This document shows, piece by piece, positions 3,036 to 62,525 of a stretch of 64,000 bases of DNA. Source of the stretch: Rhizophagus irregularis (lineage: Eukaryota; Glomeromycota; Glomeromycetes; Glomerales; Glomeraceae). The position numbers and the translations under genes were made by a program. Where the stretch lies: NCBI RefSeq assembly GCF_026210795.1, contig NC_089433.1:3993001-4057000 (forward strand), in the 5' to 3' direction. Numbering within the stretch: the stretch's first letter is position 1; every line of letters starts with the position of its first letter. The notes under the pieces were generated by a model. The model saw only the letters and a program-made list of their open reading frames with translations. It did not search any database and was not told the DNA's origin.

Positions 3036-3040
3036 TAGCC

Positions 3041-3235
3041 ATGTTCTGAAAAAAATCGTTTTTGTATTATCTTACGATCTATTGGTCCAATTTCGACAAT
3101 CTTTTTTTTATTTTGTAGAGGGCGTGGAGAGCTACATGACAAAAAAATGTTCATTGAAATTGAATTACTGGATCACGAGAAAATCGCAAAAAAATGATTT
3201 TTTTATTTTCCCCGAATTTGAATAGTGACTTTCAC
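3041..3235. repeat. Hairpin repeat related to the insertion at 49.5 kb
   Basis: The sequence TTATCTTACGATCTATTGGT..CCAATTTCGACAAT..TTTTTT, followed by ACAAAAAAATGTTCATTGAA..ATTGAATTACTGGATCACGAG, forms a long imperfect hairpin. The same unit recurs several times inside the element at 49461-50242. It is therefore a dispersed repeat, probably a fragment or solo unit of that element. No ends or target duplication could be placed. Confidence 0.45.
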
Positions 3236-3711
3236 TACTTGTTATATTGATCACGAATTAAACTATATTCTTTATTTAAAAATTACTTTGTAATTTCTTT
3301 TAGTTGGTAAGTTATTTATCTAATTCTATTATTACTTATTATATAATACTTACATATAATTTAAACTAACTAAATTCTTTATTTAATAGATTGTAAGTTA
3401 TAACTTATAAGTTATTTATTTAATTCTATTATACTTATTGTTAAATATTTTCATATAATTTAAACTAATTAAATTCTTCACTCAAAAAATTATTTAATAA
3501 TGTAGCTTGTAGGTTGTTGTTATTTTTATTGTTATATATTTTATATAACATTTATTTGTTAACTGTATTCTTTCATCACTTAAATTTCTATTACTTTAGT
3601 TGGTAAAGAGATATATTACCTTAAATTCCTATTTAAATTTTAGAGTAAGTGTTAATTTTAATCTTAAATTTTAGTATAAATTTTATTATAAACTTTAATT
3701 ATTTAAATTTA

Positions 3712-23110: not shown

Positions 23111-24865
23111 ATGTCAACGCAATTTCTTTCAAAATTAAGTCAAAATTATATTGAATTATTAGGAGATAATGAATACTATGATGTTACAATTGAAGTTGGT
23201 GAAGATCCTAATGTAAAAATCCTTCGTGCACATATAAATATTTTGTGCTATCGTTCTCCATATTTACGACGAATTTTAGCTTCCAGTAAAAAAAATAAGG
23301 ATAATGTTCTAGCTCATATTAAGTTACCAAACATATCACCTGAAGTCTTCCAAATTATTTTAAAGTAAGTTTTATTTATAATAAATAAATTTATGCGTAT
23401 TACATAATCAAATATTCAAATAGGACCCCGAGCTATACATAAAAAGGTAGGGTAAAGGTTTGCGTAGAATTGACCAAAATAATCATGTAGATCTTTCCTT
23501 TTATAGATATTCCGGCCGGAATTTATTTCCCTTTTTAGACGCTGACTGGCATTATCATAATTCCGGCCCTGAAAAAATGCGTAGAGCTAATAGTAATTTT
23601 TTTTTGACTGCACCTTACCTCTATATATATAGCTCGGGGTCCTATTCAAATACTAAATTTAAATTATTAAATTTTTGTATTATAGGTATATTTATGGTGG
23701 TATTCTTTCATTAAATGATCATGATACTTCAGAAATTTTCAAAATTTTATTGGCTGCGGATGAGCTGCTTCTTCAGGAACCAGTTGACTATTTACAAAAG
23801 TATTTAATTGGAAATAAATCCGAATGGATGGAACAAAATTTTGAACTTATTCATCGAACAAGCTTTCAATCAAATTCTTTATTACAACTTCAACAATTTT
23901 GTACAAATTTTATGGCAAAATCTCCAGAGAAAATATTTAAATCACTTGATTTCACTTCGCTTCCGGAACAATCTTTAGTTCAACTCATTAAAAGAAATGA
24001 TTTGCAAATGAAAGAAATTGAAGTTTGGGAACATGTATTAAAATGGGGTCTTGCACAAAATCCTACACTTCTTCCAGATCCTAATACTTGGTCAGATGAT
24101 GATTTCAAAACAATGGAAAATACTTTACAACATTGTTTATCTTTAATTAGATTTTTTAGTTTATCATCTAAAGAATTTTTACAAAAAATTCATCCTTATA
24201 AAAACCTTTTAAAACGTAAACTTTACGAAACTTTGTTAAATTTTCATTTGGATCCCGATTTTGATTCAACTGACAATATTTCACTTCCCAGAAATCCTAA
24301 AATTGATGGAATTATTGATTCAAAAATTGTAAATAATTTAGATATTATTTCAACAATTTCAAGATGTATTGCTGATGTTAATAGCAAAATTTCGCATGTC
24401 AGAAAATTTCATTTACCGTACAATTTTCAATTATTATTAAGAGGAAGTCGAGATGGATTTACACCTAAAAAATTTCACGAATTATGTAATGATATATCTC
24501 ATACCGTTACATTTATTAAAGTAAAAGGAACAGATGAAATTATTGGTGGATATAATCCGTTAATATGGAGGAGATCTTCTGGTAGTTGGGATAAAACTAA
24601 AGATAGTTTTATTTTTTCTTTCAAAAATAATGATGTCAAAGATGCAATTATTAGTAATATAGAAAATATAGATTATGCAATATATTGTCGATATGACCAT
24701 GGTTCGCGTTTCGGTGATGATATTGTCATGCATGCTTCTGGTGGGGAATGCGCATATTACAATGATATTCGTTGTAAAAAGGTGCAATATAATAAAAAGA
24801 TAAGAGATACCGAGGGTAATTTTTCCATAGATGATTATGAAGTATTTCAAATAGTAAAGAGATAA
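23111..24865 (+). CDS. BTB-BACK-TLDc protein, chimeric (copy 4)
   Basis: Exon 1 is 23111-23364 and exon 2 is 23686-24865 (477 residues, phase-2 intron in codon 85). The intron is 321 bases instead of about 90 because a 220-bp MITE sits in it. The first ~200 residues equal those of copy 5; from residue ~202 on they equal copy 3. The switch lies in the shared 20-base block 24017-24036 (residues about 196-202, in BACK: IEVWEHV). BTB, BACK and TLDc are all complete, ending DYEVFQIVKR. It is an intact hybrid produced by recombination between neighbouring paralogues. Whether it is expressed cannot be told. Confidence 0.9.
23423..23642. mobile_element. Intronic MITE with 10-bp target duplication
   Basis: The ends are GGACCCCGAGCTATA and its perfect complement TATAGCTCGGGGTCC, with weaker pairing further in (to about 34 bp). 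Both ends are flanked by TATTCAAATA (23413-23422 and 23643-23652). The same intron of copy 7 carries a single TATTCAAATA directly followed by the same intron tail (30611-30655), an empty site. A duplication of 9-10 bp is typical of Mutator-like elements. Small size and no coding content make it a MITE. The splice sites are untouched, so splicing should still work. The short plus-strand frame across it is spurious. Confidence 0.85.
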
Positions 24866-25624
24866 GGCTGCTCCAAGCCAATTCTTTGTTTAACATAACA
24901 TAGGGGCCCCAATCTAGGGGGGGGGAGGGTAATATTGGCCAAAATTTTGACCAAAAGAGTGAGCAAAAATTTTGGATGATAATTCCGGCCAAGACTTAAA
25001 GATTTGTATAATTCCGGCCTAAATTACATGTATTTTTTTTACATAAAAAATCCAAAAACAGGGGGAGGGGGTTATGTTAAACGAAAAATTGAATTGGTGC
25101 GGCCTAAATGCAGTATTATCAAATAAGTTGTATCGATCTTATTTGAAATGAAATAAGAATACTTTTATTAGATTATTATTTAATATGTTTCACTTTATAA
25201 ACATTGTATTTGTGAAATCTTTTAACTCGACTCTAAATTAACATTTCATTTGTTTCATTTGTAAATTAAATTATTATCATACTTAATAAATATTTCTAAA
25301 ATTCCATTAGGAAAAAAAAACCTTCGATAAATATGGCTCCAATTCTCATATCTCGAAGTTTTTTAATATATATTTATACAGTTGACTTTCATCAGTTTTT
25401 TCTTTAGCAAAACTTTTGAGAATGATCAGTGGAAAGAGTTCTTTTCCTGATTAAAAAATATATTCATTACAACGAAGGATAAAAAGATAAATGATAATTA
25501 GTCGCTTCCTTATGATTCCAAAAGGAATCAATTAAATTATTTTAACCAAATGGCCAAAAAGTACGTAATTTATGATTCGATCGAGAGTAAATACTCTCAT
25601 CAGCTGATCGCAGTACTTGTCCTA

Positions 25625-25687
25625 TGGCGCAGTAAAATTCTATTTTGGAAAGAATTACGTTAATACTTATTCAATTTAACCATATCA
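25625..25687 (+). promoter_or_regulatory. Conserved upstream block of BTB copy 5
   Basis: Same block as at 22918-22980, identical because it lies in the duplicated unit (GGAAAGAATTACGTTAATAC core). Confidence 0.5.
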
Positions 25688-25817
25688 ACCACACCTGAAA
25701 CAATTACTACAATTACTTTCAAATAAGTAAACGATAAGCATAATAAATTTACACAATATTAACCACAAATTATTTTTTGAGTCGACGCTACCTCAATTTC
25801 AATTTTAAATATAAATT

Positions 25818-27575
25818 ATGTCAACGCAATTTCTTTCAAAATTAAGTCAAAATTATATTGAATTATTAGGAGATAATGAATACTATGATGTTACAATTGA
25901 AGTTGGTGAAGATCCTAATGTAAAAATCCTTCGTGCACATATAAATATTTTGTGCTATCGTTCTCCATATTTACGACGAATTTTAGCTTCCAGTAAAAAA
26001 AATAAGGATAATGTTCTAGCTCATATTAAGTTACCAAACATATCACCTGAAGTCTTCCAAATTATTTTAAAGTAAGTTTTATTTATAATAAATAAATTTA
26101 TGCGTATTACATAATCAAATATTCAAATAGGACCCCGAGCTATACATAAAAAGGTAGGGTAAAGGTTTGCGTAGAATTGACCAAAATAATCATGTAGATC
26201 TTTCCTTTTATAGATATTCCGGCCGGAATTTATTTCCCTTTTTAGACGCTGACTGGCATTATCATAATTCCGGCCCTGAAAAAATGCGTAGAGCTAATAG
26301 TAATTTTTTTTTGACTGCACCTTACCTCTATATATATAGCTCGGGGTCCTATTCAAATACTAAATTTAAATTATTAAATTTTTGTATTATAGGTATATTT
26401 ATGGTGGTATTCTTTCATTAAATGATCATGATACTTCAGAAATTTTCAAAATTTTATTGGCTGCGGATGAGCTGCTTCTTCAGGAACCAGTTGACTATTT
26501 ACAAAAGTATTTAATTGGAAATAAATCCGAATGGATGGAACAAAATTTTGAACTTATTCATCGAACAAGCTTTCAATCAAATTCTTTATTACAACTTCAA
26601 CAATTTTGTACAAATTTTATGGCAAAATCTCCAGAGAAAATATTTAAATCACTTGATTTCACTTCGCTTCCGGAACAATCTTTAGTTCAACTCATTAAAA
26701 GAAATGATTTGCAAATGAAAGAAATTGAAGTTTGGGAACATGTGTTAAAATGGGGTCTCGCACGCAATCCTACACTTCTTTCAGATCCTAATAATTGGTC
26801 AGAAAATGATTTTAAAACAATGGAAAATACTTTACAGCAATTATTATCTTTAATTAGATTTTTTAGTTTATCATCCAAAGAATTCTTAGAAAAAGTTCAT
26901 CCTTTTAAAAATCTTTTAAGACGTCAACTTTATGAAGATTTATTGAAATCTCATTTGGACCCTATTAGCGACCCGAATAACAGCATTTTACCTCCTAGGA
27001 AAATTGGAATTGAGAAAATAATTGATACAAAGATTGTTAATTTAGAAATCGCTTCAACTATTTCGAAATGGATTGACAAAACAGCTATTGTTGTTAATAG
27101 CAAATTTGATCATTTAAGAGAATTATATTTACCATATAAATTTCAATTATTATTAAGAGGAAGCCGAGATGGATTTACACCCAAAAAATTTCATGAATTA
27201 TGTGATAATATATCTCACACTGTTACATTTATTAAAGTAAAGGGAACGGAAGAAATTCTCGGTGGATATAATCCGATAATATGGAATTCTAATGGTGGTT
27301 GGGGTAAAACTAAAGATAGCTTTATTTTTTCCTTCAAAAATAATAACGTTAAAGATGCAATAATTAGTAATGTTACTAATGATCTCGCAATAAATTATTG
27401 GAATATACATGGACCATTTTTTGGTGATGATATTATTATATATGCTTCTGGTGGTGAAAACACAGATTACGATTGCATTTGGTGTAAAAAGAATCAATAT
27501 GAAAAAAGGATAAGAGATACCGAAGATAGATTTTCTATGGATGATTATGAAGTATTTCAAATAATAAAGAGATAG
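25818..27575 (+). CDS. BTB-BACK-TLDc protein (copy 5)
   Basis: Exon 1 is 25818-26071 and exon 2 is 26393-27575, giving 478 residues. The promoter, exon 1, intron (with MITE) and first ~200 residues are identical to copy 4. From 26744 on the sequence is its own: KWGLARNPTLLSDP in BACK, and KTAIVVNSKFDHLRELYLPY before TLDc. TLDc keeps FQLLLRGSRDGFTPKKFHEL, GPFFGDDI and DYEVFQIIKR. It is probably the original neighbour whose 5' half was copied into copy 4. Role as for the family: BTB/BACK adaptor with an uncharacterised TLDc end. Confidence 0.92.
26130..26349. mobile_element. Second copy of the intronic MITE
   Basis: Identical to the element at 23423-23642, in the intron of copy 5, with the same TATTCAAATA on both sides. 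It was copied as part of the tandem duplication, not by a second insertion. Confidence 0.85.
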
Positions 27576-28127: not shown

Positions 28128-29634
28128 ATGTCAACCCAATTTCTTTCAAAATTAAGTCAAAATTATATTGAATTATTGGAAGATAATGAATACTATGACG
28201 TTACAATTGAAGTTGGTGAGGATCCTAATGTAAAAATCCTTCGTGCACATATAAATATTTTATGTTACCGTTCTCCATATTTACGACGAACCTTGGCTTC
28301 TAGTAAAAAAAATAAAGATAATGTTCTAGCTCATATTAAGTTACCAAATATATCACCTGAAGTCTTCCAAGTTATTTTAAAGTAAGTTTATCTGAAAATA
28401 AATTTTAATATTTTTGACAGTACTATAAATCTAATATTTATATTAATTTAGATATATTTATGGTGGTATTTTCCCATTGAACGACCATGATAATTCAGAA
28501 ATTTTTAAAATTTTATTAGCTGCTGATGAACTGCTTCTTCAAGAACTGGTCGATTATTTACAAACATATTTGATTGAAAATAAATCCGAATGGCTGGAAC
28601 AACATTTTGAATTAGTTCATCGAAAAAGCTTTCAATCCAATTCTTTAATAAAACTTCAACAATTTTGTACAGATTTTATGGCAAACTCTCCAGAGAAAAT
28701 ATTTAATTCACTTGATTTCACTTCGCTTCCCGAAAATTCTTTAGTTCAACTTATTAAAAGAGACGATTTACAAATGAAAGAAGTTGAAGTTTGGGAGCAT
28801 GTAATAAAATGGGGTCTTGCGCAAAATCCTACACTTCTTCCAGATACTGATACTTGGTCAAATGAAGATTTCAAAATAATGGAGAATACTTTAAAACATT
28901 GTTTGCCCTTGGTTAGATTTTTTAGTTTATCATCCAAAAATTTTTTACAAAAAGTTCGTCCTTATAAAAACCTTTTAGAACGTCAACTTTACGAAAACTT
29001 ATTAAATTCTCATTTGGATCCTGATAGTGAACCAATTGACAATATTTCACTTCCTAGAAATATAAAAATTGATGGAATCATTGACTCAAAAATTATTAAT
29101 AACTTGAATATTATTTCAGTAGTTTCAAGACGGATTGCTAAAATGGTTATTAATAATAAATTTGATCACTTAAGAGAATTGCATTTACCCTATAAATTTC
29201 AATTATTATTAAGAGGAAGTCGAGATGGATTTACACCTAAAAAATTTCATGAATTATGTGATGATAGACCTCACACTGTTACATTTATTAAAGTAAAGGG
29301 AACGAAAGAAATTCTTGGTGGATATAATCCGATAATATGGAAATCTTCTGATGGTTGGGGTAAAACTAAAGATAGTTTTATTTTTTCCTTCAAAAATAAT
29401 GATGTCAAAGATGTAACTATTAGTAATATAGAAAATGCAGATTATGCAATATATTATTATTATAGAAATGGTCCGCGTTTTGGTGATGATATTATCATGC
29501 ATGCTTCTGGTGGGAATTACACAGATTACGATGAAATTCGTTGTAAAAAGAAGTATTATGAAAAAAAGATAAGAAATACCGAGAATTATTTTTCCATAGA
29601 TGATTATGAAGTATTTCAAATAGTAAAGAAATAA
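28128..29634 (+). CDS. BTB-BACK-TLDc protein (copy 6)
   Basis: Exon 1 is 28128-28381 and exon 2 is 28452-29634 (478 residues). The short intron has GTAAGT and TTTAG ends and phase 2 in codon 85. BTB: AHINILCYRSPYLRRTL; BACK: IKRDDLQMKEVEVWEHVIKW; TLDc: FQLLLRGSRDGFTPKKFHEL, GPRFGDDI, DYEVFQIVKK. The intron lacks the MITE present in copies 4 and 5. Intact, and close to copy 7 in promoter and BACK sequence. Confidence 0.92.
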
Positions 29635-47189: not shown

Positions 47190-47745
47190 TGTCCGGAAAT
47201 TGTCCAGAAATCGAATCTAGAAAATTTGTCTAAATAATTGTCCAGAAAATGTCCAGGTACCATGTCCGGAAATTGTTCCGAAAACACTCATTTCTGCCAC
47301 CATCACTATAATTGCTCTTAACTTAAAACTTTATATCATAGATATATAGTATTCTTGCTTGCTCATTAGTATGACAAAGAAGGTTATGGATGTCAGTTTT
47401 GTGCTTTTTGCGTTTTTTTACAAAATTAATTTATCCTTTTTTTGGAAATAGCGCCCAGAATTTGTCCGGAATTTTTTCATGTCCAAAATTTGTCCAGTTC
47501 AAATTATCTGAATTTTTACTATAACCAGAATTTATCCAGGTTTATCTGTCCGGAATTTGTCCAAAATTTTATACTGGACAAATTCTGGATAAATTCTGGA
47601 CAAATTCCGGATATGTCAAAATTTTAAGTATCAAATTTGTAGCAAAAAAATAGACATTTTCCGGACAATTTCTGGACATGCCAGATTTATTCTGGACCAG
47701 TTTCCAGACATTTTCATAGACATTTTCCAGATGATTATTTTTTTA
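47190..47745. repeat. TGTCCGGAAATT word array with orientation switch
   Basis: Variants of TTGTCCGGAATTT / TTGTCCAGAAAATT occur some 20 times. Left of about 47570 most are in the TGTCC orientation. Around 47574-47612 the complement (GGACAAATTCTGGATAAATT) takes over, then the orientation mixes. The result is a set of nested inverted repeats. No coding sequence. It could be a decayed fold-back transposon or a self-amplified palindromic repeat. Confidence 0.55.
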
Positions 47746-49460
47746 TTGGGCATGTTTTAAAATAGGCAAACAACAAAAACAAATGGGCTAATTGGTTAGT
47801 GGGAATCATTGAAATGTTTTTATTGTAAATGTTTTAAGATCCGTCATTATGAAACAAATCATTATGAATATGAAAAAATTATTTACTAGGCTTTGAATTG
47901 TATAAAAAGCTGAAAAATAAAAAAATTAAATCTCGAAAATATCTCTAATATTTACATGAAAAAAGGTGAAGGCACAATTTACTCTATATTTTCTTTAAAA
48001 AATAAAAATGCATTTGCTGTACATCACGTGTTCATTTTTTTTCGTTAAAACAAACAAATTGAAATATTACAAGAATTCCTGATTCTTCATTTGGCGAAAG
48101 AAACATATTAAAAATACAACAATAGGTGAGTATCATGAATTATAATTTTCTTGTTATATCATCTTTATCACAATCCTTTTTACGGGTTGATTTAAAATAT
48201 GATTTATATGTCAATAAAAAGAAGGGCAATAAAGGGTTATTTTCATATAAACCATAATTATTCGTAGATTTCAAGCTAAATTTTTATGGTAAGATGGCTG
48301 CAGATTGGCGTATTGTACATGATCCACTGTACAACATTTATTTACCTTTTTTTCCATAATGATTTTTATCTTTTTTTATTCTTTTTAAAAAAAGACAAAC
48401 GAAAAATGTCTACTCAATTTTTTTCAAAATTAAGTCAAAACTATATTGAATTGTTAGGAGATGATGATTATTATGATATTACAATTGAAGTCGGAGAGGA
48501 TCCTAACGTAAAAATCATTCATGCTCATATGAATATTTTATGTCATCGTTCTCCATATTTACGACGAGCTTTAGTTTCTAATAAAAAAAATAAAGATAAT
48601 GTTTTAGCTCACATTAAGTTACCAAAAATATCACCTGAAGTCTTTCAAATTATTTTAAAGTAAGTTATTATACAAATAAATTTAATATTATAATAGCAAG
48701 TTTTATAATATTTAATATTAAAATTTAACTTAATATAGATATATTTATGGCGGGATTCTTTCATTGAACGAGCAAGATGACTCAAAAATTATTAAAATTT
48801 TATTGGCTGCAGATGAATTACTACTTCAAGAACTAGTTGATTACTTACAAGTATATTTAATTGAAAATAAATCCGAATGTATGGAACAAAACTTTGAACT
48901 TATCCATCGTACAAGTTTTCAGTCCAATTCTTTAATACAACTTCAACAATTTTGTACAGATTTAATGGTAAACTCTCCAGAGAAAATATTTAAATCACTT
49001 GATTTTACTTCACTTCCTGAAAAATCTTTGGTACAACTTATTAAAAGAGACGATTTACAGATGAAGGAAATTGAAGTTTGGGAACATGTATTAAAATGGG
49101 GACTTGCGAAAAATCCCACACTTTTTCCTGATCCTAGTACTTGGTCAGATGACGATTTCAAAGCAATGGAAAATACTTTACAACATTGTTTATGTTTAAT
49201 CAGATTTTTTAGTTTATCATCTAAAGAGTTCTTACAGCAAGTTCATCCTTATAAAAAACTCTTAAAACGTCAACTTTATGAAGATTTATTAAATTCTCAT
49301 TTGAATCCTGATAGTGAACCAACTGAAAGCATTTCATTTCCTAGAAATATTAAAGTAGATGGAATTATTGATTCAAAAATTATTAATAATTTAAATATTA
49401 TTTCAACCATTTCAAGACGTATTGATAAAATGGTAATTAATAATAAATTTGACCATTTAA

Positions 49461-50242
49461 TTGCTAATTCGGTTAAGATCAGCAGTGTCCTACTATGTAA
49501 AATTGGGGAAATTGGTGCAAATAATAAAAATAATTATCATATGATCTAATAATCCAATTTTGATGAACTTTTTTTTGTTCTGTAAGTCTGGATTACCTTT
49601 ATAAAATAAAAATAATTTCATTGAAATTGGACCATTAGATTGTGAGATAATCACAAAAACATATTTTACTGACAACGATCAGATTCCATTAATAACAAAG
49701 CAGACAATTATCTCCTAATTCAGTGATCCAATTTCGATAAACTTTTTTTTGTTATTTAGATCTCAATAATCTCTACATAATAAAAGAATTTTGTCAAAAT
49801 TGGGCCTCTAGATCATGAGATAATTGCGAAAACATATTTTGCCAGACGATTTTTAGATTCATGATATGGCAAAATATATCTTTGTGATTATCTTCCGATC
49901 TAGCAGTCCAATATTGACAAACTTTTTTTTATTGTGCAGAAGAGGTTAAGACCTAAAAGACAAAAAAAAATTATTGAAATTGGATCACTGAATTAGGAAT
50001 CAATTCTTTTTTTATGATTTACTAAAATTTAGTCATAATAATAATATGAAATACTTTTTCACGATTTTCTTATAATTTAGTATTTCAATTTCAATAAATT
50101 TTTTATTTTATTGAGAAAATCAAGATCTATAAAACAAAAAAAAGTTCATTGAAATTGGATCATTGGATCAAAAGATAATTATTTTCTTTTTTTGCCCCGA
50201 TTTTACATAGTAAGACACTGCTGATCTTAACTGAATTAGCAA
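49461..50242. mobile_element. Non-autonomous DNA transposon, TTAA or TA target site (782 bp)
   Basis: Terminal inverted repeats of about 43 bp start TTGCTAATTC(G/A)GTTAAGATC and continue through AGCAGTGTC and TACTATGTAAAAT. Flanking TTAA is present on both sides (49457-49460, 50243-50246); the family sequence without insertion reads CATTTAAGAG. TTAA would suggest piggyBac-like activity, TA alone a mariner-like one; both fit. The interior consists of about four diverged hairpin units, each with GATCCAATTT-type and AAATTGGATC-type arms around an A/T-rich spacer. A related unit lies at 3041-3235. No transposase is encoded. Confidence 0.8.
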
Positions 50243-50572
50243 TTAAGAGATTTGTATTTACCATACAAGTTTCAATTATTGTTAAGAGGGAGCCGAGATG
50301 GATTTACACCTAAAAAATTTCATGAATTATGTAATGATATACCTTGTACTGTTACATTTATTAAAGTAAAAGGAACAGACGAAATTCTTGGTGGATACAA
50401 TCCAATAATATGGAAATCTCATGATTCTGGTTTATGGGCTAAAACTAAAGATAGTTTTATTTTTTCTTTTAAAAGTAATAGTGTTAAAGATGCAATCATT
50501 AGTAACGTAGAAAATAAAGATCATGCAGTGTATCATCACTCTAATTTTGGTCCACATTTTGGAAGTGATATA

Positions 50573-51502
50573 CAGTGGTCGAAAAAAGTCCTCGGAATTA
50601 CAAAAAAATGCAAAAAATGAGCAACCAGTGATCAGAATTGCTTCAAATTTTGCAGATTTATTACCAAATGTGTGAATATTATGCATACAAAATTTCAGCT
50701 GTTTATCTTGCTTCTTTGTCTCGCAATCGTTTTTTTAAAGTTCAAAAAAATAAGTCATCAAAAATTTAACCTACAAAAAATCTGAAATTCTGATATAATA
50801 TTCAAATTGAAGTTTATTAAAAATTGAACAGTTATAAATCATAGTTTATGGTATGATAATTTTAACAAAAAAAATTTGGCCCTTTATTATTTGTTAGTTG
50901 TTGAGAAAATTGGAATCAAATTTTATCCACCACAATTGATCGCAACTGTTTTCTACCCTTAAAATCAATTGAAAGAACTAAAATTCATAATCAAAGTTAA
51001 ACTATAATAATTATAAAAAAATTATTGTAAAAACTATTTAATAATAGATTAATATTAAAAAAAAATTATCTATACAAATAATTTTAATGTACTATGATTT
51101 TACTATTTTAATTTTAATGACTTTAGTGCTTTTGAGCCAATTTTTAATCTCACTTTACAGAAAACTAACTGATTAAACTATAATCAAATTTTTTTAATAA
51201 ACTAATTAGAAATATATTTTTTTACGTTTATAATTTTTTATTATAAGTATACAAGCTGATTTTTAGTAACTGAACGCAAAATGTTAATCATTTCAAGTTA
51301 TCGTATTGCTTAAATTTTTAATGATTTTTTTTTGAACTTAAAAAACCGATTGTGAGACAAGGAAACAAGATAAATGGCTGAAATTTTGTATGCATAATAT
51401 TCACACATTTGGTAATAAATCTGCAAAATTTAAAGCAATTCTGATCACTGGTTGCTTAATTTTTGCGTTTTTTGTAATTCCGAGGACTTTTTTCGACCAC
51501 TG
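50573..51502. mobile_element. Long-TIR mariner-type element (930 bp)
   Basis: It begins CAGTGGTCGAAAAAAGTCCT and ends with the exact complement, with TA on each side (50571-50572, 51503-51504). The inverted repeats extend for about 195 bases with few differences, including GATTTATTACCAAATGTGTG. CAGT ends with TA duplication are the Tc1/mariner hallmark. The ~540-base centre is AT-rich with no transposase frame, so the element is non-autonomous. It interrupts TLDc of copy 11. The high match of the two arms suggests a fairly recent insertion. Confidence 0.9.
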
Positions 51503-51659: not shown

Positions 51660-52320
51660 TTTCGTTTTTATTTGAAACAAGGATATCTTAAATTACTTTA
51701 TTGTATGCGCTATTATCGGGCAATTATTATGGTTAATATGGTTAATATCATGTTTTCTAATATCTTACGTGATGACATTATGTTTACTTAAAAGGATAAG
51801 TTAAAAAAGTCTATCGGTAGTTTAAAATTGTATACGGGACATTAATTTCCGTGGTATAAACCAGTTATTTCATGATCAGCCTCGGTCTCATTATCATCAC
51901 GTCACCGCCGTGATGATCAATGTATCGTTAAGTTGTTAAATAAATTTATCGTACACTTAAGTTGCTGTTATAGAGAAGAAATAGAAAAAATATTATGAAT
52001 TTTCTTAACCTTTATTAGATAAAAAGAAATAATGTTGCAAGTAAAGTCCTATTCATATCTTTTTTATTTCGAATTTGATTAAAAAAGATTCCATCTAACT
52101 CGTGAAGTTTAATTATTTTTATAAAAAAAAAAAAGAAATGCTATAACGTTCGTCCAGAGTTTCAGATGGTAATGAGAACATATACCTCAATTATTTTACA
52201 TTACGTTTGTTGAAAAATATTTATACAAATAGTACATTAGTTTAACTACTATACGACAAACATGTACTAGTTGTTATTATATAAATTATATTTATGTACA
52301 AAAAAAAATATTTTTTTTTT
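51660..52320. other. Gene-free stretch
   Basis: Between BTB copy 11 and the transporter gene. AT-rich, with a long T/A tract at 52303-52324. No gene seen. Confidence 0.4.
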
Positions 52321-52324
52321 TTTA

Positions 52325-53343
52325 CTATCTTCTCTTGTGACTTAAATCATATACAGGTAAAGTGAAATAAGAAGTTTCGAGGGTTATTAATTCAGCAAAA
52401 GCATTATACCAGGCCATTAATGAGGTTAATATACCGAATACACCACCAGCTTTTGTTAAGCCATTTGGTCCTTTTACATCTTCGCTAAGTTGGTAAAATT
52501 TCCCTAATGTAAGTAAGACCATTGCAGTGTTTAAGAAAAAGAATAATAACAGAGTTGCTCCATTTGTTTTGAGCGCCGCTAATGTCAAAAGGAACGTAAC
52601 TGTTAAGTTAAAAAAAAAAAAAAGACGAGCTTTTAGTAAAAATGATAAAATGTATATATGAGTCACGTGTATAGAATATACTTACAGATAGTCCATGCTA
52701 ATAAATATATTCCAACTAAAAAAAAATTAGTAATGATTAATTTGATATCAAAATTTATTTTAATGAAGAAAAAAAACTTTATTTACTAGCATGATCAACT
52801 GCAAAAGGATCTTCGGGTATGTAAAAATCTGTAAGACGAAAAATGAAATTTGAAGCGTAAGAGAGCCAAAAAGCACCAAAAGAACCAGCAGCGGTGGCAC
52901 CAAAGGTATTTCCAGCTTTAAGATGCCACAATCCTGCTATTAATTGTACTAGACCACCATAAAATAATGCCAATCCTACTACAATATTTGGAAGTTGTAG
53001 GTAATAGGATCCAGAATTATTAATCGACAATACAAATGTTGTTAAAGCAAATGCGCATAACCCTATTAATTTAAATACAAAAAAATTATGGATGAAATTA
53101 GAAAAGCTAAAATTTTAATTTAGTTTAATAAGGAATATTACCGTTCCCACTTAATTGTTTGTTAGGGGTATTTAAACATAACTTTTTCAAAAAAAAAAAA
53201 TAGAAGGGTGAAAACGTTAAATAAACAATTAAGTTGGAATGGTTTATTGATCACATGCCAAGTGGACCAGAGCTAGCGACTTTTGGTGAAGTGTCTTCGA
53301 ATGTTCTGAATTCACCACTTTTTCCTTCTTCAAGAGTCGTCAT
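52325..53343 (-). CDS. GPR1/FUN34/YaaH-family acetate transporter, paralogue A
   Basis: Four exons: 53343-53259, 53062-52787, 52715-52686 (30 bases) and 52599-52325, joined in frame to 221 residues. Residues 1-28 are a polar cytosolic head. Then comes SSGPLGLCAFALTTFVLSI, the family entry motif (N-P-x-P-L-G-L type) leading into helix 1. Helices follow through VVGLALFYGGLVQLIAGLWH, TAAGSFGAFWLSYA, AIGIYLLAWTIFTFLLTLAA, TLLLFFFLNTAMVLLTLGKF and GGVFGILTSLMAWYNAFAEL, six in all. The C-terminus is LPVYDLSHKRR. The family moves acetate/succinate or ammonium across plasma membranes. Intron 1 is GC-AG (exon ends CTTG, intron starts GCATGT); introns 2 and 3 are GT-AG. Confidence 0.9.
53141..53242. 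repeat. Inverted-repeat segment in intron 1 of transporter A
   Basis: Arms of 20 bp, CCGTTCCCACTTAATTGTTT and AAACAATTAAGTTGGAATGG, enclose about 62 bases. On the plus strand the inner part starts GTTAGGGGTATTTAAA and ends AAAACGTTAAAT. In paralogue B the inner part is reversed relative to its flanks. Confidence 0.85.
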
Positions 53344-54045
53344 TTTTGGTTCGTTATTGTCGGTATACTTTGATATTTAAGGAATTATAGATGTTAATAA
53401 TATTTTCAGAGAAAATTAAGAATAGAGAAAAAAAAGGTGATTTTATAACAAATTCATACATTCTTTTTGTGACATCGGAATTCGGAAGTTCTTTTTTTAT
53501 TCCTTCCGTAAAAGATAATCAAAAAAATTTTTATTTTGTAATACAAAAGAATATCACCCCCGTCATGTTCGATTTTCGCATTAACATTTTTGATTATTAA
53601 ATCGTGATGATCACATGCGACAAATGATCAAATGACCAGATTAACATCCTATTTTCAGCCAATTATTCCCTCACTTGACACCACGTGTATAGATGAACTA
53701 TATAACATGATTATACGGATAAATAAATAAATAAAATAAATTTAAAAACCTTTTTGTGAAAGATCTCAAATCTATTTATCTGTTAATAATTTTCATTTTT
53801 TAAACTATAATTCTGGCCGGAGTTAAAGTATAAATTTTTACCAATGCTATTTTAACGTCATGTACAAATTTAAGTCTTCAATTATTATAGTAATACGATT
53901 ATTCAATTAATGGAGATTCTAATGTAGTACGGGTATGAATATTACTTCATTAAGAGCTATAATAAATTTAATACAGCTGAATGTATAATAATATATTGTT
54001 ATCTTTTTGTTATAAAATAATTATGTTGATTTTGTTTATTGAGTA
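53344..54045. other. Upstream region of transporter A
   Basis: Matches the upstream region of transporter B (60779-61480) in many blocks (ATATTTAAGGAATT, TTTTCAGAGAAAATTAAGAA, AAAGGTGATTTTATAACAAA, TCTAATGTAGTACG). No other gene. The small plus-strand frame at 53391 lies in this promoter and is not conserved. Confidence 0.45.
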
Positions 54046-54049
54046 TAAG

Positions 54050-54320
54050 AGCTTTTTAAAGTTTTATTGGTCCTTTGGCCGTGAATAAGTTTAATTATTT
54101 GATTATTTATAAAAGTATTTGTCAAAAATAAATAAATAGATAAATAAATAGATATAAATAAACAGATAAATAATTCGAATGCATGGTCTTTTTCATTGAA
54201 CAGGTTAACTTTAACAATTTATATTAAAACTAGACAACAATTTTTTGGATCCTAATTGGGTAATTTAGAACTAACCAAAAAAGTACTTAAAGGCTTTGAT
54301 ATGTTTAGAAAAAATTCATC
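54050..54320 (+). pseudogene. Relic of a BTB gene, exon 2
   Basis: Words such as TTTTTAAAGTTTTATTGG, GGCCGTG, GATTATTTATAAAAGTATTT, CGAATGCATGG and GAAAAAATTCATCC follow the order of BTB exon 2 (for comparison copy 7, 30706-31160) with large losses. The same relic occurs next to transporter B (about 61480-61690), so it was already decayed, or at least present, before that duplication. Confidence 0.5.
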
Positions 54321-54654
54321 CTAAATTCCTAATATCAGATATAGAATTATTGAATTAATTATTATGTGTATGTATATACATTATATAATTACTTTCAAAT
54401 ATTTAAATAAAAATATTACCATATTTATCGTAATAATGTTATCGATAATCTTACGATGATAATACAATATCTACCTTAAAAGGTAATGTAAAGAAGTGAA
54501 CAGTAACATAATTTTTTGTTTTTTAATGGAAAAAGATAACCTTTAAATAAATCCCTTGTTAATCAGTTCAATCCCAATAACCACTATTTTCTGGTTAGAT
54601 TTATAATCCATTATTTATTATTTATTATAAAAAAAATTTATTGTATTTAGGTAT

Positions 54655-54935
54655 TAATAAGATTATCAGGATATCCGGATAATCGAGAAAATGGAATTTG
54701 ATTTTTAGATTACTTTTGACTAGATGATAATCCTAATAGTTCGATCGCAACTAAGAAAAATGGATAAAAAACAATATCACGTAAACTTACAATTTGTGAC
54801 ACCGTTAATTTTAAAATTTAGAAACGAATCAAATTTTGAATTTTTAATCATGTTTAAATAATTATGGCGTATATTACGTGAAACATTGAAACAATCCATT
54901 ACTACTAAATAAGTAGCACAATGAATTTTTTTTAT
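54655..54935 (+). promoter_or_regulatory. Orphan BTB upstream region
   Basis: Matches 62530-62765 before BTB copy 12 (ATATCCGGATAATCG, GATAATCCTAATAG, ATCGCAACTAAGAAAAA, ATTACGTGAAACATTGAAA, CTAAATAAGTAG), but no BTB exon 1 follows. It marks the place of a lost BTB gene in this half of the segmental duplication. Confidence 0.5.
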
Positions 54936-54939
54936 CTTA

Positions 54940-55735
54940 TGTCATCTTTAAATACATCTATCTTCAAATACATCTATGAAATTAAAGTCATTTAGTCATT
55001 TTCTATTGCGATCTGCAATGTGCGTTTGATAAACCGATATTCCAAACCTTGTTTTAGAGTGCAGAATCTTCTTTACCAAAAGCGGTACATACAATAATAA
55101 AACTAGAAACGATCACCGAAATGACTAAGTGTTCTAATTTTGATTGGTTTTTTTGTAAAAATTCTATTAATCAAAGCAGAATTACTGCTGATCGGTTACG
55201 ATCACGTGCATTCATCTTTGGAACAAAAATGAATTGGGTGATAGGTGAGGGGCTTTGGCCGAGTATCGAACGATGCTTGGTCTGGCTAATCCACTTTGAA
55301 GGAGGTTGTCTTAGGTAGTTTCTTTTTTAGATGCAATGTACACTTTTAAAACTGTTTCATTCTCAACTGTTGGTCAATATTGGTTGTCGTGTATGTGCGT
55401 CGCCGTTCCTTCATTGAAACTTAAAAATAAAAAAAATAAAAAAAAATAAAAATAATAAATGATTATTGGTGGAATATCTCACCGATTCACTGACAGGGTC
55501 ATTTCGGACAAGGGAATTTAGGATTATATTTAGGTAAGGAAATTAGGGTTAGGATTAGGGTTAGGTTAAGGTTAAAATAAGTGGTGAAATAACGGTAAAA
55601 TGTTCCTGTCGGCGAAATTATAGTGAAATGAACCAGATCCCAAGAGTATTTTATTTCAATCATTCGATTTCATACCATTTCCTAAAAGTCTTTAGTTATA
55701 AGAAATGAAAGAAGAAATATGTACCTCAATAGGGT
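54940..55735. other. Gene-free stretch with a telomere-like patch
   Basis: No gene. At 55541-55576 the plus strand reads AATTAGGGTTAGGATTAGGG then TTAGGTTAAGGTTA, a short TTAGGG-like tract. The frame at 55121-55318 has no recognisable features. Confidence 0.4.
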
Positions 55736-55870
55736 TTTGCACAAAATCTTACATTTGATAATCCAGATCCAAATAACTGGACAGATGATGATGGAATATT
55801 CTCTGCAATAGTATTTATCTTTAATACAATTATTCATCTTCTCTTTGATCAATCTTATATTTCTTAATGG
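55725..55870 (+). pseudogene. Relic of a BTB gene, BACK region
   Basis: GGTTTTGCACAAAATCTTAC, GATAATCCAGATCC, AAATAACTGGACAGATGATG correspond to the BACK-domain stretch coding KWGLAQNPTLLPDPNTWSDD in the paralogues. It reads GFAQNLTFDNPDPNNWTDDD, then degenerates. It is the remnant of the gene that belonged to the orphan promoter at 54655. Confidence 0.6.
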
Positions 55871-55879
55871 GATAATAAA

Positions 55880-57375
55880 TTATCAAATAGTTAACTTTCG
55901 AAAAATTAGGTAATTAAGATTTATAAAATTATAAGAACCAAAATCTTGTGTAACTTAATACGAATCCGAGGTATTAATAATTTGAAAATTTTTTATTCAA
56001 ACAATATAGAAATATCTGATGTCAATATGCCATTATACAGTGTCTATCACATTTAAATAAAATAATTTTTAACAAACATGATTTTTATTTGATTTTTATT
56101 TTCAACTTTCTGCACCATAGTTAACATCAAATTACGACAACGGGAATTTTCATGTTACCTTTGATTCAATAGATTTCATATGTCAACTGAAGTATCTTCT
56201 TTAAGGACATCTCTTTTATAAATAAGTTCATAAGAATAATAAAATTAATATTACACTATTATACATTATTATATAATACATTTCAATTTAAGCAGATCAA
56301 TTAGCGGTGACGAAGTCACCGCACATTAGAATCCTCTAGTTTTTTTTAAAAAAAGAGATTTAATATTATCAAGATCAGATTTTTTTTTATCAAGATTCAA
56401 GATTTTATTTCCTTTATGAAACAAATCTTGTAACTGATTAATGTAGGAGAAATGATTCTAGTGATATTACGCAATTTATAAATAAAAAAGTTTTTTTAAT
56501 TTGATGGTAGTTTAATAGTTTAATAAAAAGATTCATATTACTAGTTATTGGAATAAATAATTTTCGCATTGATTCAATATTGTATTTTTCTTCATTAATT
56601 TGGTGAAAAAGTAAATTGGCTTCTTATGATTAGATATGAAAAAAAAAATGATACCGAGATATGACTTAAATTTAAACGAAATGCGAATAACAATAAATGA
56701 ATTAAATGTCATTAAGATCTTTGTGAATTTGAACGACTTTAATTTTGGTTCTCAATTCAAGGCACTACTCATTACTCGCTAGTCGCTACATTGCAATACA
56801 ACAATAAATTTTTACGAATAATCAACTGTATAATAATATAATAATTTATTTAAAGTGTTAATAAATGAAATTATTCAAATTACAAACTACTCTATTCTTA
56901 GTGTTTAAATAATTCTAAATAAAATAAAAAACGAAATATATAAAAAATTGTAAATCAAAAATTTAGATAATTTATTATTTCAAGTGATGTAGTACAATGT
57001 CTCGATTGTTTAAAATAATCATGTCGGACATAAAATTATACTATTTTAATCACTAATCCACTTAATATATAATGGGAAATTTTAAATATATTTACATATT
57101 AATACACTACTAACAGCTAATATAAATAAAACTATAGGCGCGATATACAAGCTCCGCACATAATCAATTGCAGAATCACATGAGATACGATCATTTTTTA
57201 CTTACGAGTCGCGAGTCGCGATTTTTTTACTTGTAAACAAGTATATATATACTCTCAACATATATATATACCATCAGTTTTCTCCAAAAAAAAAAAAAAT
57301 ACTCACCTTTTCAGAACGTTCTTTCCAAAAATGCCCTAGAGTCCGAATATAACAAATAATAAATACAGTAATATG
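55880..57375. other. Gene-free stretch
   Basis: AT-rich. The only structure is a perfect hairpin GCGGTGAC-GAA-GTCACCGC at about 56305-56323, followed by a T/A-tract, and ACGAGTCGCGAGTCGCG near 57205. No gene recognised. Confidence 0.4.
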
Positions 57376-57445
57376 GTTGTGTTTTACGTTTAACAACCTT
57401 TGTGTTTACCTACACCCTTCCTTTCGCAAGAAAATTCCCATCGTA

Positions 57446-58230
57446 ATGTCTTCTTCAAATAAAAAATCGTCTCGTGAAGTCTTATTACATTTATGGAATA
57501 ACGGTATTCATAATGTAAAAGAATTACATAGGTTAACAAACATCCAAAAGTCCACTATTTACGATAATATAAAAAATTTAAAGAAAATGGGACTATAAAG
57601 CATGCTGGAGACCCAAAAAGATTACCACAAATGTCTCCCGTGCACTTGGTCGATTTGTAAGGCATGATACGTCTCTTTTCACAAGAACTTTGGAGAAAAT
57701 ATAGGCGTAGAAGTATCGTATAGAACCGTTGGAAGGCATCTTTCAAGTATTGGTTGTGTAAAAAGACTGCCTAACGCAACCCCTATGCTGACCAAAACAT
57801 ACAAGGTAAAGCGTGTGGAGTGGGCAAAAAAAACATATTAATAACCAATGGGATAAAACTGTTTATACTGATAAAACTTCTTTTCAAATCTTTAGAAACA
57901 CCGTTGAATGATGGTATAAAGGAGAAAGACCAGTTTGGTGTATGCCTAAAGATCGTACGAAGATTATGGCATGAGGTGGATTCTGCGTGAAAGGAAAAAC
58001 AAAATTATTTTTGTTTTAAACAAATTATGAACGCCAAATTTTATGTGGATTGTGGAAATTCTTCGTACACATATTACTGAGATCTTCCAGATGCTTGGTG
58101 ATCGTTGGTGCTTCCAACAAGACAACGATCCCAAGCATACCAGCCGTCTTGCAAAAGCCTTTCTTAAGGAAAATGTTTCAGTAGTGTAGCATTGAGCATT
58201 GAAACACTAGGCAACAGACGGAAGCTCTCT
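57446..58230 (+). mobile_element. Tc1/mariner-type transposase, broken
   Basis: The N-terminus MSSSNKKSSREVLLHLWNNG with ELHRLTNIQKSTIYDNIKNL is a helix-turn-helix DNA-binding domain. After a stop at 57598 the frame changes give VSYRTVGRHLSSIGCVKRLP, then WDKTVYTDKTSFQIF with the first catalytic D, and FQQDNDPKHTSRLAKAFL with the second D, typical of DD34D/E transposases. The third acidic motif (PDLNPIENLW type) is not readable. At least four stops and two shifts separate the parts, so it is inactive. I could not find terminal inverted repeats around it. Confidence 0.8.
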
Positions 58231-58303
58231 GAATGGAGTATTGCTGGTTTACTAGATGTGTGTAAAATGGCTAGGAGACTTTAAAAGAGGTGTGTATTTT
58301 TTT

Positions 58304-58502
58304 ATTTGCAAAGTGGGTAACTTCCTAAGCTAAAATTAGAACGGATAACTCATTTGAGTCGGGGAGTTCACAAATTTTACTTAGGAGGGTACTGGATTTG
58401 TTTGCTTGGGTTGGGTAAGGGTGAACAAAGTGGGTAACTCCTAGGAAAATCTAGAACGGATAACTCAATTGAGTCGGGGAGTTCACAAGGTTGACTTAGG
58501 AG
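58304..58502. repeat. Two direct copies of an ~80-bp repeat
   Basis: AAAGTGGGTAACT-CCTA, then AGAACGGATAACTCA and TTGAGTCGGGGAGTTCACAA, ending ACTTAGGAG, occurs at about 58308-58387 and 58425-58502. After it, AGGAGAATTATCTGCT (58500-58515) is the approximate complement of AGCAGATAATATCCTA (about 58634-58650), enclosing a T-rich tract. This looks like debris of a repeat element rather than a gene. Confidence 0.5.
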
Positions 58503-58509
58503 AATTATC

Positions 58510-59780
58510 TGCTTTTTATTTTATTTTATTTTTATTTTTATTTTTTTATTCCCTTTTTTTCTTTTTTCTTTTTTCTTTTTTATCTTTTTTTATTTTTTTT
58601 TTATTTCTCTTGTTCACTTGATAACCAACTCAAGCAGATAATATCCTACTTTGTTGTTAGTAAAGTCTGCTAATTCTAAAGGAGGAATTGGCTATGTCTT
58701 CTTTATGATTAAATAAAAATTTAGCACACTATTAATAATTTTTCTTTCTCATAATAGGTAAATGCAGTGATTTACAATCACTGGTAGAATGAAGAAATTT
58801 CAATTCTAAAAGGAATAATATTTGGTAAATAATTAATTTGAAAATTATTTTAAAAACATTATATATATATCACGCATTTATCTTTTTTCTTTTTTCTAGT
58901 TCATATTATAATTAACTCGGATAAAATTCTTATGGCTTTATTGAAAGAAATTTTCCAAAAAAAGACAGCTATGCTAATTTGGTATGACATGTGAGATAGA
59001 TATCCACTCTGTTGACCCGGTCACCTACGATAACTAATTTTTAACTTCTTTATGGGTAACCAATAAAATTGCTTTAAATTATGTTTATAGAAGTGAAAAG
59101 TATATTGATCTAGCACACATTTCTAACAATATTTGCCAAAAATCATTTTATTAACAAACGTTTATACTAGGGTTGGATTGGTTCGGTCTGGTCTAGTCCA
59201 TTTATCTTTCGGGGCAGTTCTTTTGATCATTTGTAAGACCGGTCCTTAATGGTTTCAAATTTATTTTTATTTATAACGTCGGTATTGATTATTGATCAGC
59301 AAGACAATGAAACATAACAGGCGCACTAAATCTTGACATTAATTTATAAGTCTCATACTTTACCTTTTTAAAGCATCAATAAGGAATCAAATGATATCGA
59401 TATTACAAAAAATTGAAATATGAAAATTTTAATAAATCAAAATGAAAAATTGATTAATAATAGGTATTTTATTAGTCGAAAATTTTATATAATCGATCAC
59501 AGCCCTCAAATCCTGGATCGAAGACCGTTGAAGACCGGTCCTAGTAAGATTAGTTCTTTCTAGGACCGATCCAATCCTAAATTTTCAGCGTAAATGTTTT
59601 ACCATCATACATATTTATGTCGTAATTATTACTAATAGATTTTTATCATTTATTAAAATTAATATAAAATGAATAAATTGGTTTAACTAGTTTGCAGTAT
59701 ATGTATATATGTATTTTTTTTTTACGGTAAACATGTACTAATTTGTCATATAAATTATATTTATGTACAAAAAATTATTT
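58510..59780. other. Gene-free stretch
   Basis: T-rich tract at 58515-58610, then AT-rich DNA. Near 59180-59240 and 59500-59580 GGTTCGGTCTGGTCTAGTCC and GACCGGTCCTAGTAAG-type words are roughly inverted relative to each other, perhaps the ends of a decayed MITE (about 59160-59585). No gene. Confidence 0.35.
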
Positions 59781-59781
59781 T

Positions 59782-60778
59782 CTATTTGTTCTTACGACTT
59801 AAATCATAAACGGGTAAAGTGAAATAAGAATTTTCGAGGGTTATTAATCCAGCAAATGCGTTATACCAAGCCGTTAATGCGACAAATATACCGAATACAC
59901 CACCAGCTTTTGTTAAACCATTTGGTCCCTTTATATCTTCATTAAGTTGGAAAAATTTCCCTAATATAAGTAAGATAAATGTGATATTTACGAAAACGAA
60001 TAATAACAAAGATGCTCCATTTGTCTTGAGCGCCGCTAATGTCATAAGGAACGTAACTGTTAAGTTAAAAAAAAAGGAGCTTTTATTAAAAAAATGATAA
60101 ATATATATATGAGTCGCGTGTATGAAATATACTTACAGATTTCCCATCCTATTAAACTTATTCCAACTAAAAAAAAAATATAGTAATGATTAATTTGATA
60201 TCAAAATTTATTTTAAGGAAGAAAAAAACTATATTTACTAGCATGATCAACTGCAAAAGGGTCATCGGGTACCACAAAATCTGTAAGGTTAAAAAGGAAG
60301 TTTGCAGCGTAAGAGAGCCAAAGAGCACCATAAGAACAAAAAGCGGTGGCACCAAAGCTATTTCCAACGGTAAGATCCCACCATCCTGCACATATTTGTA
60401 CTATCCCACCATAAGTTAATGCTAATCCTACTGTAATATTTGGAAGTTGTAGGTATGAGGATCCAGCATTATTAATCGATAATACAAATACTGATAAAGC
60501 AAATGCACTTAACCCTATTATTTAAACACAAAATTATGGATAAAATTAGAAAAATTAACATTTTGAATTTAGATTAATAATAATAAATATTCCCGTTCCA
60601 ACCTAATTGTTTATTTAATGTTTTCACCCCTTCTATTTTCTAAAAAATTGTTTAAGTGCCCCTAACAAACAATTAAGTTGGAATGGTCTATTGAACACAT
60701 GCCAAGTGGTCCAGCGCTAGCGACTTTTGGAGTGACTTCTTTGTCTTCCCCACGTTTTCCTTCTTCAATAGTTGACAT
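59782..60778 (-). CDS. GPR1/FUN34/YaaH-family acetate transporter, paralogue B
   Basis: Four exons with the same structure as paralogue A: 60778-60703, 60514-60239, 60166-60137 (30 bases) and 60056-59782, giving 218 residues. The head is MSTIEEGKRGEDKEVTPKVA; the motif is SAGPLGLSAFALSVFVLSI. The middle helices are more altered than in A (VGLALTYGGIVQICAGWW, TAFCSYGALWLSYAANFLF). The C-terminal half (LAALKTNGASLLLF, KAGGVFGIFVALTAWYNAF, LPVYDLSRKNK) is close to A. Intron 1 again uses a GC donor (CTTG then GCATGT) and TAG acceptor. A product of the same segmental duplication; both copies look functional. Confidence 0.9.
60593..60686. repeat. Inverted-repeat segment in intron 1 of transporter B
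   Basis: Arms CCGTTCCAACCTAATTGTTT and AAACAATTAAGTTGGAATGG. The inner part reads ATTTAATGTTTTCACC...GTGCCCCTAAC on the plus strand, which is the reverse complement of the inner part in paralogue A, whereas the flanks are in the same orientation. Confidence 0.85.
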
Positions 60779-61475
60779 TTTCGACTTTATTGTCGTTATA
60801 CTTCGATATTTAAGGAATTTTAAAAGTTAATATTTTCAGAGAAAATTAAGAATAGAGAAGAAAAGGTGATTTTATAACAAACTTTTTATAATTCATACAT
60901 TTATTTTGTGATATCAGATATCGGAAGTGCTTTTTTTATTCTTTCCGTTAAAGATCATCAAAAAGAGAAAAAATCCCGCCTTTTAAATCTCGATGATCAC
61001 ATGTGACGAATGATCATTTATCAAATGACCCAGATCAACATACTATTCTCTTGACGATGAAAATATGTTTTTTCTCCGAAACTATAAAAGAATGTCCTTC
61101 ATAGTAAGGATGATAAGCAAATATATCGTGTCACATCAATGTTAAAATATAAATAAGCATAGATAGGCATTAACAAAAACGATATTTTTACAAATATTTG
61201 AATATAATTTTAAATATTCGTTACTTTAATGATCTTATTATAAAATCATATTAACAAGATGATTTACTTTCTCACTATCGTTTATCATAATTGCATTTAA
61301 AATATAAATATAAATAATCATCAACACCGAATTTAAGTCTCTAATTAATATCATTGGTTCAATGGTGAAGATTCTAATGTAGTACGTGTATGAATATTAA
61401 TGTATTACGAGCTATAACAGTTTAATATAGTGTATACTGATATATTATAACCTTTTTGCAATATATTATTATCAT
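60779..61475. other. Upstream region of transporter B
   Basis: Block-wise similar to 53344-54045. No other gene seen. Confidence 0.45.
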
Positions 61476-61479
61476 TTGA

Positions 61480-61690
61480 TTATTTATAAAAATATTTGTA
61501 AAAAAAAAATATATGAATAAATTTGAACGAATGAAATTTTGCTTGTTTTAACATAATTTTTTTTATTCAATTTTCGCTGATCCTGGTTAGATAACTTCGA
61601 ACTAACAAAAAAAATACTTAAAGACTTTAATTGAGATTAATATGTTTAAAGAATTCTTGCCAAAAACTCATCCTAATAACATCTTCAAAT
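61480..61690 (+). pseudogene. Relic of a BTB gene, second copy
   Basis: GATTATTTATAAAAATATTT and TTTAAAGAATTCTTGCCAAAAACTCATCC-like words (the second corresponds to the family's SKEFLQKVHP segment) recur in BTB exon-2 order, matching the relic at 54050-54320. Heavily decayed. Confidence 0.45.
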
Positions 61691-61699
61691 ATGGAAAAT

Positions 61700-62525
61700 A
61701 TGGAATATTGAATTAATTATTATCATTTTATATGTATACACATATATTATATAATTTACTTTCAACTATTTATCAGTAAAATTTTAATGATAAACTTGAT
61801 TATTTAAATAATAGATGTTTACCATTTTTATCGCAATGACGCTATCAATAAAATTTCATACATTACGACGGTAAACATAATGCAAATAAAGAAGTTTTGC
61901 GAGTAAACTAGCAATATATACAGTATATATACATATATAATATATATATATATATGTTTAGAAAGGATAACCACCTTAGTACAAAATCTCTGACCGAATT
62001 TTTACCGTTAATCAGTTCAATCCTAATAACAGGTTTAGATTTATAAAAAATTTTAAGATGGATGTTACGTGAACTATTCAAAATCAAGACGATCATCCCG
62101 TCATAATATAAACCGACATCAATTTATAAGCCCAAAATTCAAAATATTATCTCAACATTCGACACTTATTATCCTTTTGAAAATTATATTGTAGATTAAT
62201 TAGGTAGATTAAAAATAAATAAAAATTATATCTTTATGATACAAAAAACCGCATTTTTATTTAATAAAAAAATTATTTTTTTCTAACTAATAAACACTTA
62301 TAAACATTAATAATAATAATAATTAATTTTTGAATTTTTAAAAATCTTTGCATATTAATAAAAATATTAATTATTAGGAAGTATTACAAAACATAACATC
62401 TATAAAAAAGAGTAATAATTTAAAATTAAAGGAAAAAAATAATAAATGTCGGGATAATGAGTGCCGGGTTTTGAATTTTCAAGATTATTATTTGTCCCAG
62501 ATGCCACATAAAAATATGCGTTCTT
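61700..62525. other. Gene-free stretch
   Basis: AT-rich, with a TATATA microsatellite at about 61913-61957. The part at 61960-62045 matches 54540-54610 in the other half of the duplication. No gene. Confidence 0.4.

Follow-up and report, generated by a model that had tools for sequence, protein, structure and literature searches.

How does a short segment within an intron come to face in opposite directions in two copies of a gene that are otherwise collinear? The question is raised by a 64-kb window of the Rhizophagus irregularis genome (the whole stretch analyzed; contig NC_089433.1, positions 3,993,001 to 4,057,000; AT-rich, 26.5% GC), in which two tandem paralogous transporter genes of the GPR1/FUN34/YaaH family carry, at a matching place in intron 1, a hairpin-forming segment of 102 bp (copy 1, 53141-53242) or 94 bp (copy 2, 60593-60686). 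In each, two 20-bp inverted arms enclose an inner part, and the inner part of one is the reverse complement of the other (Table 1). This inverted relation between the paralogues is confirmed as real, and it very probably arose when a single ancestral segment was flipped in place in one of the two genes.

Aligned in inverted orientation, the inner 62 bp of copy 1 and the inner 54 bp of copy 2 agree at 48 positions, disagree at 5, and need 10 gap columns (score 52); in direct orientation they agree at 32, disagree at 21, and again need 10 gap columns (score -37). The best score among 5000 dinucleotide shuffles was 13. When the copy 2 inner part is reversed computationally, the score of intron 1 with some exon on either side rises from 176 to 265. 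BLASTN pairs 52252-53525 with 59723-60964 on the plus strand (1292 columns, 81.5%), and nested in this pairing is a minus-strand match (104 columns, 81.7%, E 1.5e-23). The paralogues are collinear in their exons, their intron flanks, and the outer ends of the arms. The inner edges of the inverted repeats abut the inverted part. When the inner segment was scanned against the whole window (14,212 windows of 54 bp in 9-bp steps, both strands), the top scores belonged to the segment itself (86, 62, 50, and 8) and, off register, to the other copy read on its minus strand (22 and 16), the best score outside both copies being 6. An earlier, sequence-only reading of this DNA had placed the flanks and exons of the two genes in the same orientation and described a reverse-complemented inner part of ~60 bp, and both descriptions are borne out, the latter by 48/53 inverted against 32/53 direct matches. 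A better direct match, which that reading had named as evidence against itself, was looked for, and the direct alignment proved far worse. Its segment of ~95-100 bp with 20-bp inverted repeats is likewise present in both introns, with lengths now revised to 102 and 94 bp and with a left (plus-strand) arm that differs from the right one at 2 of 20 positions.

The hairpin is a conspicuous feature of this window. The 20-mer AAACAATTAAGTTGGAATGG occurs four times at up to three mismatches, where 0.02 occurrences are expected and 0/100 shuffles reached four; both plus-strand occurrences are exact, and both minus-strand occurrences carry two mismatches. When extended, the arms span 24 nt at 88% identity, 56 nt apart, in copy 1, and 23 nt at 87%, 48 nt apart, in copy 2. 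Inverted repeats of the same class, counted as 20-nt arms with at most 2 mismatches, a spacer of 20-100 nt, and an arm GC of at least 25%, number five in the window, two of them being the intron hairpins, whereas none of 20 dinucleotide shuffles contained any. The three others lie at 497-603, 540-599, and 47549-47611 (0, 2, and 1 mismatches; spacers of 67, 20, and 23), and the first two overlap. Folded as RNA, the copy 1 hairpin has a predicted energy of -19.8 kcal/mol (z -3.4) and that of copy 2 one of -27.9 kcal/mol (z -6.4), each surpassing all 200 of its own shuffles. The arms start 16 nt past the donor and finish 78 nt ahead of the acceptor, and intron 1 without its hairpin measures 94 nt in both genes (196-102 and 188-94). 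Set beside the 71-86 nt of the remaining four introns (introns 2 and 3 of both genes), this remainder suggests that an intron of nearly normal length received the hairpin as an insertion long ago, and that the splice sites are held close together when the arms pair. A search of Rfam with 52000-62000, up to an E value of 1, returned no match to a known RNA. Reading intron 1 as a stwintron or as containing a mini-exon was considered and discarded, as the joined protein matches its family straight across the junction; an alternative 8-nt exon can be read in copy 1, and copy 2 has no GT donor for it (by eye).

Variants on both sides of the arm core indicate where the exchanges would have occurred. 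In both copies the outer arm variant stays with its flank, the gene-strand 5′ arm bearing CCATTCC and the 3′ arm GGAACGG, this one site forming the outer bound. The bases directly interior to the arms instead accompany the loop: in copy 2, GTTAGGGG follows the 5′ arm, and in copy 1 the complement of that sequence, CCCCTAAC, precedes the 3′ arm. With the outer variant tied to the flank and the inner-edge bases tied to the loop, both exchange points are placed by the sequence within the 17-bp arm core AAACAATTAAGTTGGAA. The inner part differs between the copies at 5/53 sites and the remainder of intron 1, with the arms counted in, at 12/130 (Fisher p = 1.0; gap columns left out), and this equal divergence argues for one ancestral segment that was flipped and makes two insertions unlikely. 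Among the 2/20 arm mismatches that each copy shows today, one is common to both copies and lies outside the exchange points, and the other differs between copies. The copy-specific mismatch is probably a later mutation, and the core may therefore have been perfect at the time of the flip.

The best-supported course of events begins with a hairpin-forming segment of ~95-100 bp that already resided in intron 1 of the single ancestral gene, as follows from the position, flanks, and arms common to both copies. One copy then had its loop reversed in place, as the sequence shows, either following the tandem duplication or at about that time. This may have been achieved by template switching, in which the polymerase would leave one arm for its complement, copy the loop backwards, and return, or by a break in the loop repaired through invasion of the wrong arm (microhomology-mediated repair). 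The product keeps the hairpin and the amount of intron outside it. Given that the hairpin is kept and that 94 nt of intron 1 lie outside it in both genes, the flip is probably splicing-neutral, and was probably tolerated as such. The most likely cause is one small, ordinary error of replication or repair at the hairpin as opposed to a dedicated switch. Since the core may have been perfect when the flip occurred, template switching and the repair route are jointly put ahead of a crossover, the sequence being unable to separate the two. In the sections of PMC8755829 drawn upon here, crossover is argued against for short arms and short loops, template switching is allowed for longer perfect arms, and microhomology-mediated break-induced repair is proposed for all of its cases; in the portion of PMC8794818 cited, loop inversions in RNA hairpins are ascribed to template switching.

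Several considerations weigh against such an account. Template switching makes imperfect arms perfect and is hard to apply to longer imperfect repeats (PMC8755829), and each copy does carry its 2/20 mismatches, one of them outside the exchange points and the other perhaps later. The inner part, at 62 and 54 bp, exceeds the 17-33 nt seen in the primate microinversions described in the same source. There are two copies only, which leaves the direction and number of flips unset, an odd number above one being possible. Furthermore, among the avian introns treated in the cited part of PMC3123225, neither stem-loops nor motifs marked the inversion hotspots, and hairpins are therefore not always the cause.

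Among the rival explanations, the closest is homologous crossover between the 20-bp arms after the duplication, which would give an identical product with breakpoints inside the arms, and to which only a small share of the probability of an in-place flip is assigned. The arms, at 17-20 bp, fall below the 50-250 bp minimum for eukaryotic homologous recombination quoted in PMC8755829, and a loop of 54-62 bp falls short of the ~145 bp given there as the persistence length, an argument made in that paper for inversions below 33 bp and extended here; by sequence alone, however, the crossover and the other routes look alike. The sequence-only reading had attributed the inversion to recombination between the arms following duplication; its single ancestral segment, inverted at the arms, is retained, and its crossover is held to be less likely on account of these short arms and this stiff loop. 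The alternative it offered, a miniature inverted-repeat transposable element (MITE) inserted twice independently, at one place and in opposite orientations, would make the 20-bp arms terminal inverted repeats. As a possible target site duplication, both copies have an AATA beyond each arm, at a distance of 2 nt on the side of the gene-strand 5′ arm and of 1 nt on that of the 3′ arm, a match that comes cheaply at 26.5% GC. Such a history would need a single insertion point to be used twice, in the face of inner parts and flanks that are equally diverged (5/53 and 12/130). An element inserted backwards would also bring its own arms, whereas the outer-arm variant, at its one site, follows the flank and not the orientation, and the 64-kb window holds no further copy of the segment. 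The common flanks, the flank-tied variant, and the equal divergence together make the double insertion highly improbable.

No more probable is an active, reversible DNA switch, driven by a recombinase or by the hairpin, that is still flipping and alters splicing or expression. Inverted repeats do enclose a segment found in both orientations, and the predicted hairpin energies of the two copies differ, partly through arm mutations and loop length; the flip nevertheless leaves splice sites, arms, and hairpin unaltered, the arms are short and close together, and no other flipped segment appears in 71 paralogue alignments. Each copy's private arm mutation lies in the same (gene-strand 3′) arm, which argues weakly against frequent exchange. 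Nothing here shows the ongoing switch that the sequence-only reading had allowed for, and no repeated flips are required by the sequence as it stands. That the hairpin is a recurrent inversion hotspot, with nuclei of one culture carrying both orientations at each paralogue, is also very unlikely, if slightly less so. Short-read assembly can be confused by short inverted repeats, and a segment placed backwards in one gene could in principle produce the observed pattern. Ordinary reads should span a feature of 94-102 bp, and 5 substitutions and an 8-bp difference in length set the inner parts apart, so that neither was copied from the other; an assembly artefact is accordingly the least credible of the explanations considered. 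An in-place flip of an ancestral segment thus remains the favored explanation.

Further copies and further flips were sought within the window and beyond. With both 131-bp hairpin regions as queries (BLASTN, E 1e-3), the 64 kb gave the two copies and one weak match (12460-12495, 39 columns, 79%). The paralogue scan took in 71 alignments of at least 200 columns (71,245 columns, overlapping pairs included) and 28,861 windows of 16-100 columns at an identity of at most 0.7; at its threshold, a gain above 25 score units that very short inversions would escape, it found the intron 1 microinversion and no second one. When BLAST output was screened for collinear matches that enclose a minus-strand one, five candidates emerged, including the intron 1 flip. 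In public collections, the degenerate arm pattern matched one viral and two bacterial stretches, with one arm each: no second arm was present at up to 5 mismatches within ~130-160 bp in the viral stretch, nor by eye within ~150 bp on either side in the bacterial ones, and these matches are taken as chance. Viral contigs contained 0 matches to the arm-plus-inner junction patterns, and the 15 pattern matches to the exon 2 protein of paralogue 1 included 0 relatives. No microinversions in fungal introns featured among the open-access articles listed by a literature search, as far as their titles and the starts of their abstracts indicate.

Table 1. Coordinates of the two transporter genes, their first introns, and the intronic hairpins (positions within the window)
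Feature	Position	Strand	Description	Basis
Paralogue 1	52325..53343	-	GPR1/FUN34/YaaH family, 221 aa; exons 53343-53259, 53062-52787, 52715-52686, 52599-52325	reading frame and splice sites
Intron 1 of paralogue 1	53063..53258	-	196 nt, GC-AG type (GCATGT...TAG)	predicted gene model
Copy 1, gene-strand 3′ arm	53141..53160	-	2/20 mismatches to partner arm; 2 to AAACAATTAAGTTGGAATGG	approximate 20-mer search, repeat search
Copy 1, inner segment	53161..53222		62 bp, inverted relative to 60613-60666	BLASTN, alignment
Copy 1, gene-strand 5′ arm	53223..53242	+	AAACAATTAAGTTGGAATGG, 0 mismatches	approximate 20-mer search, repeat search
Paralogue 2	59782..60778	-	GPR1/FUN34/YaaH family, 218 aa; exons 60778-60703, 60514-60239, 60166-60137, 60056-59782	reading frame and splice sites
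Intron 1 of paralogue 2	60515..60702	-	188 nt, GC-AG type	predicted gene model
Copy 2, gene-strand 3′ arm	60593..60612	-	2/20 mismatches to partner arm; 2 to AAACAATTAAGTTGGAATGG	approximate 20-mer search, repeat search
Copy 2, inner segment	60613..60666		54 bp, reverse complement relation to 53161-53222	BLASTN, alignment
Copy 2, gene-strand 5′ arm	60667..60686	+	identical to 53223-53242, 0 mismatches to AAACAATTAAGTTGGAATGG	approximate 20-mer search, repeat search

The two genes lie in tandem, in the same direction on the minus strand, with 7.4 kb from start to start, and the duplication extends at least over the plus-strand match given above. Their four-exon models are predicted from reading frame and splice sites as opposed to transcripts. 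Both proteins match Pfam PF01184 (GPR1/FUN34/YaaH; E 2.8e-62 for paralogue 1 and 1.9e-59 for paralogue 2), and paralogue 2, the sole query in this comparison, matches the solved succinate-acetate permease SatP (PDB 5zug, E 4.5e-17). In the predicted models, a GC instead of a GT donor (GCATGT) is kept in the first intron of both (53253-53258 and 60697-60702). The exons of the paralogues are more diverged than their introns, at 97/657 versus 24/331 ungapped sites (Fisher p 6e-4; inner segment taken inverted), with nonsynonymous (dN) and synonymous (dS) rates of 0.167 and 0.193 by NG86 and of 0.163 and 0.220 by YN00. Since the synonymous sites too are more diverged than the introns, relaxed or diversifying selection on the exons and conserved or converted introns are both possible. 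Between the two genes, 57449-58280 contains what, read by eye, resembles the remnant of a Tc1/mariner-type transposase, and 55540-55575 is a short, degenerate interstitial run of TTAGGG-like units.

Elsewhere in the window lies a tandem array of related genes, of which the single copy scanned (28447-29631) encodes BACK and TLDc domains; BTB/POZ and Kelch-like families are expanded in arbuscular mycorrhizal fungi such as R. irregularis, according to the cited part of PMC8647823. Within the array, 20938-24864 matches 23643-27574, which it overlaps, over 3944 columns at 94.2% and an offset of ~2.7 kb, and this self-match is, on its sequence, a recent tandem duplication. The ~790 bp of 49457-50246 contain many nested inverted repeats, with arms of up to 104 nt (81%) and an outermost pair of 69 nt (86%), flanked by two pieces (48734-49549 and 50240-50620) of a gene resembling the BACK-TLDc neighbors; the stretch has the look of an inserted foldback element. 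A relative of it is found at 3031-3201, and 3000-3250 has no inverted repeat of at least 30 nt within that interval itself. The other candidates of the BLAST screen were traced to these repeats and rejected: in three, 3031-3201 aligns with parts of 49542-50179 both directly and inverted at nearly one place, and one is the inverted pair 49694-49839 / 50049-50192, which lies within the repeat-rich stretch and whose arms the inverted-repeat search lists as well. All four are read as repeat structure and not as microinversions.

Taken alone, the flip is an ordinary kind of mutation and a new example of a microinversion type known from primates and chloroplasts. Its value resides in being a microinversion between paralogues resolved to the base, in which variants on both sides narrow the exchange points to 17 bp; should relatives show repeated flips, it would become a countable marker of template switching in the R. 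irregularis genome.

Compared with known systems, as these are described in the parts of the sources cited here, the segment shares a fungal intron with inverted repeats with the symmetrical (stw)introns and introner-like elements of PMC8469720. Those repeats are 45-55 nt long and intron-terminal, whereas the present arms are 20 bp long and internal, 16 and 78 nt from the splice sites, and no further copy occurs in the window. The template-switch loop inversions of RNA hairpins (PMC8794818) likewise reverse a loop and keep the stem, although their loops are typically 4 nt and in some cases 7-8 nt, far shorter than here, where no Rfam match accompanies the hairpin. The small inversions at chloroplast stem-loops (PMC3123225) offer a palindrome with its loop either way round, a change that may recur, in organelle DNA as opposed to genes with spliceosomal-type introns. 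The primate inverted-repeat-flanked microinversions (PMC8755829) resemble the present case in that a small segment, abutting inverted repeats and set in collinear flanks, is replaced by its own reverse complement. Those distinguish species and have inner parts of 17-33 nt; here the inversion distinguishes paralogues of one genome, its inner part is 54-62 bp long, and it has diverged by ~9% since the flip in a spliceosomal-type intron of a fungus.

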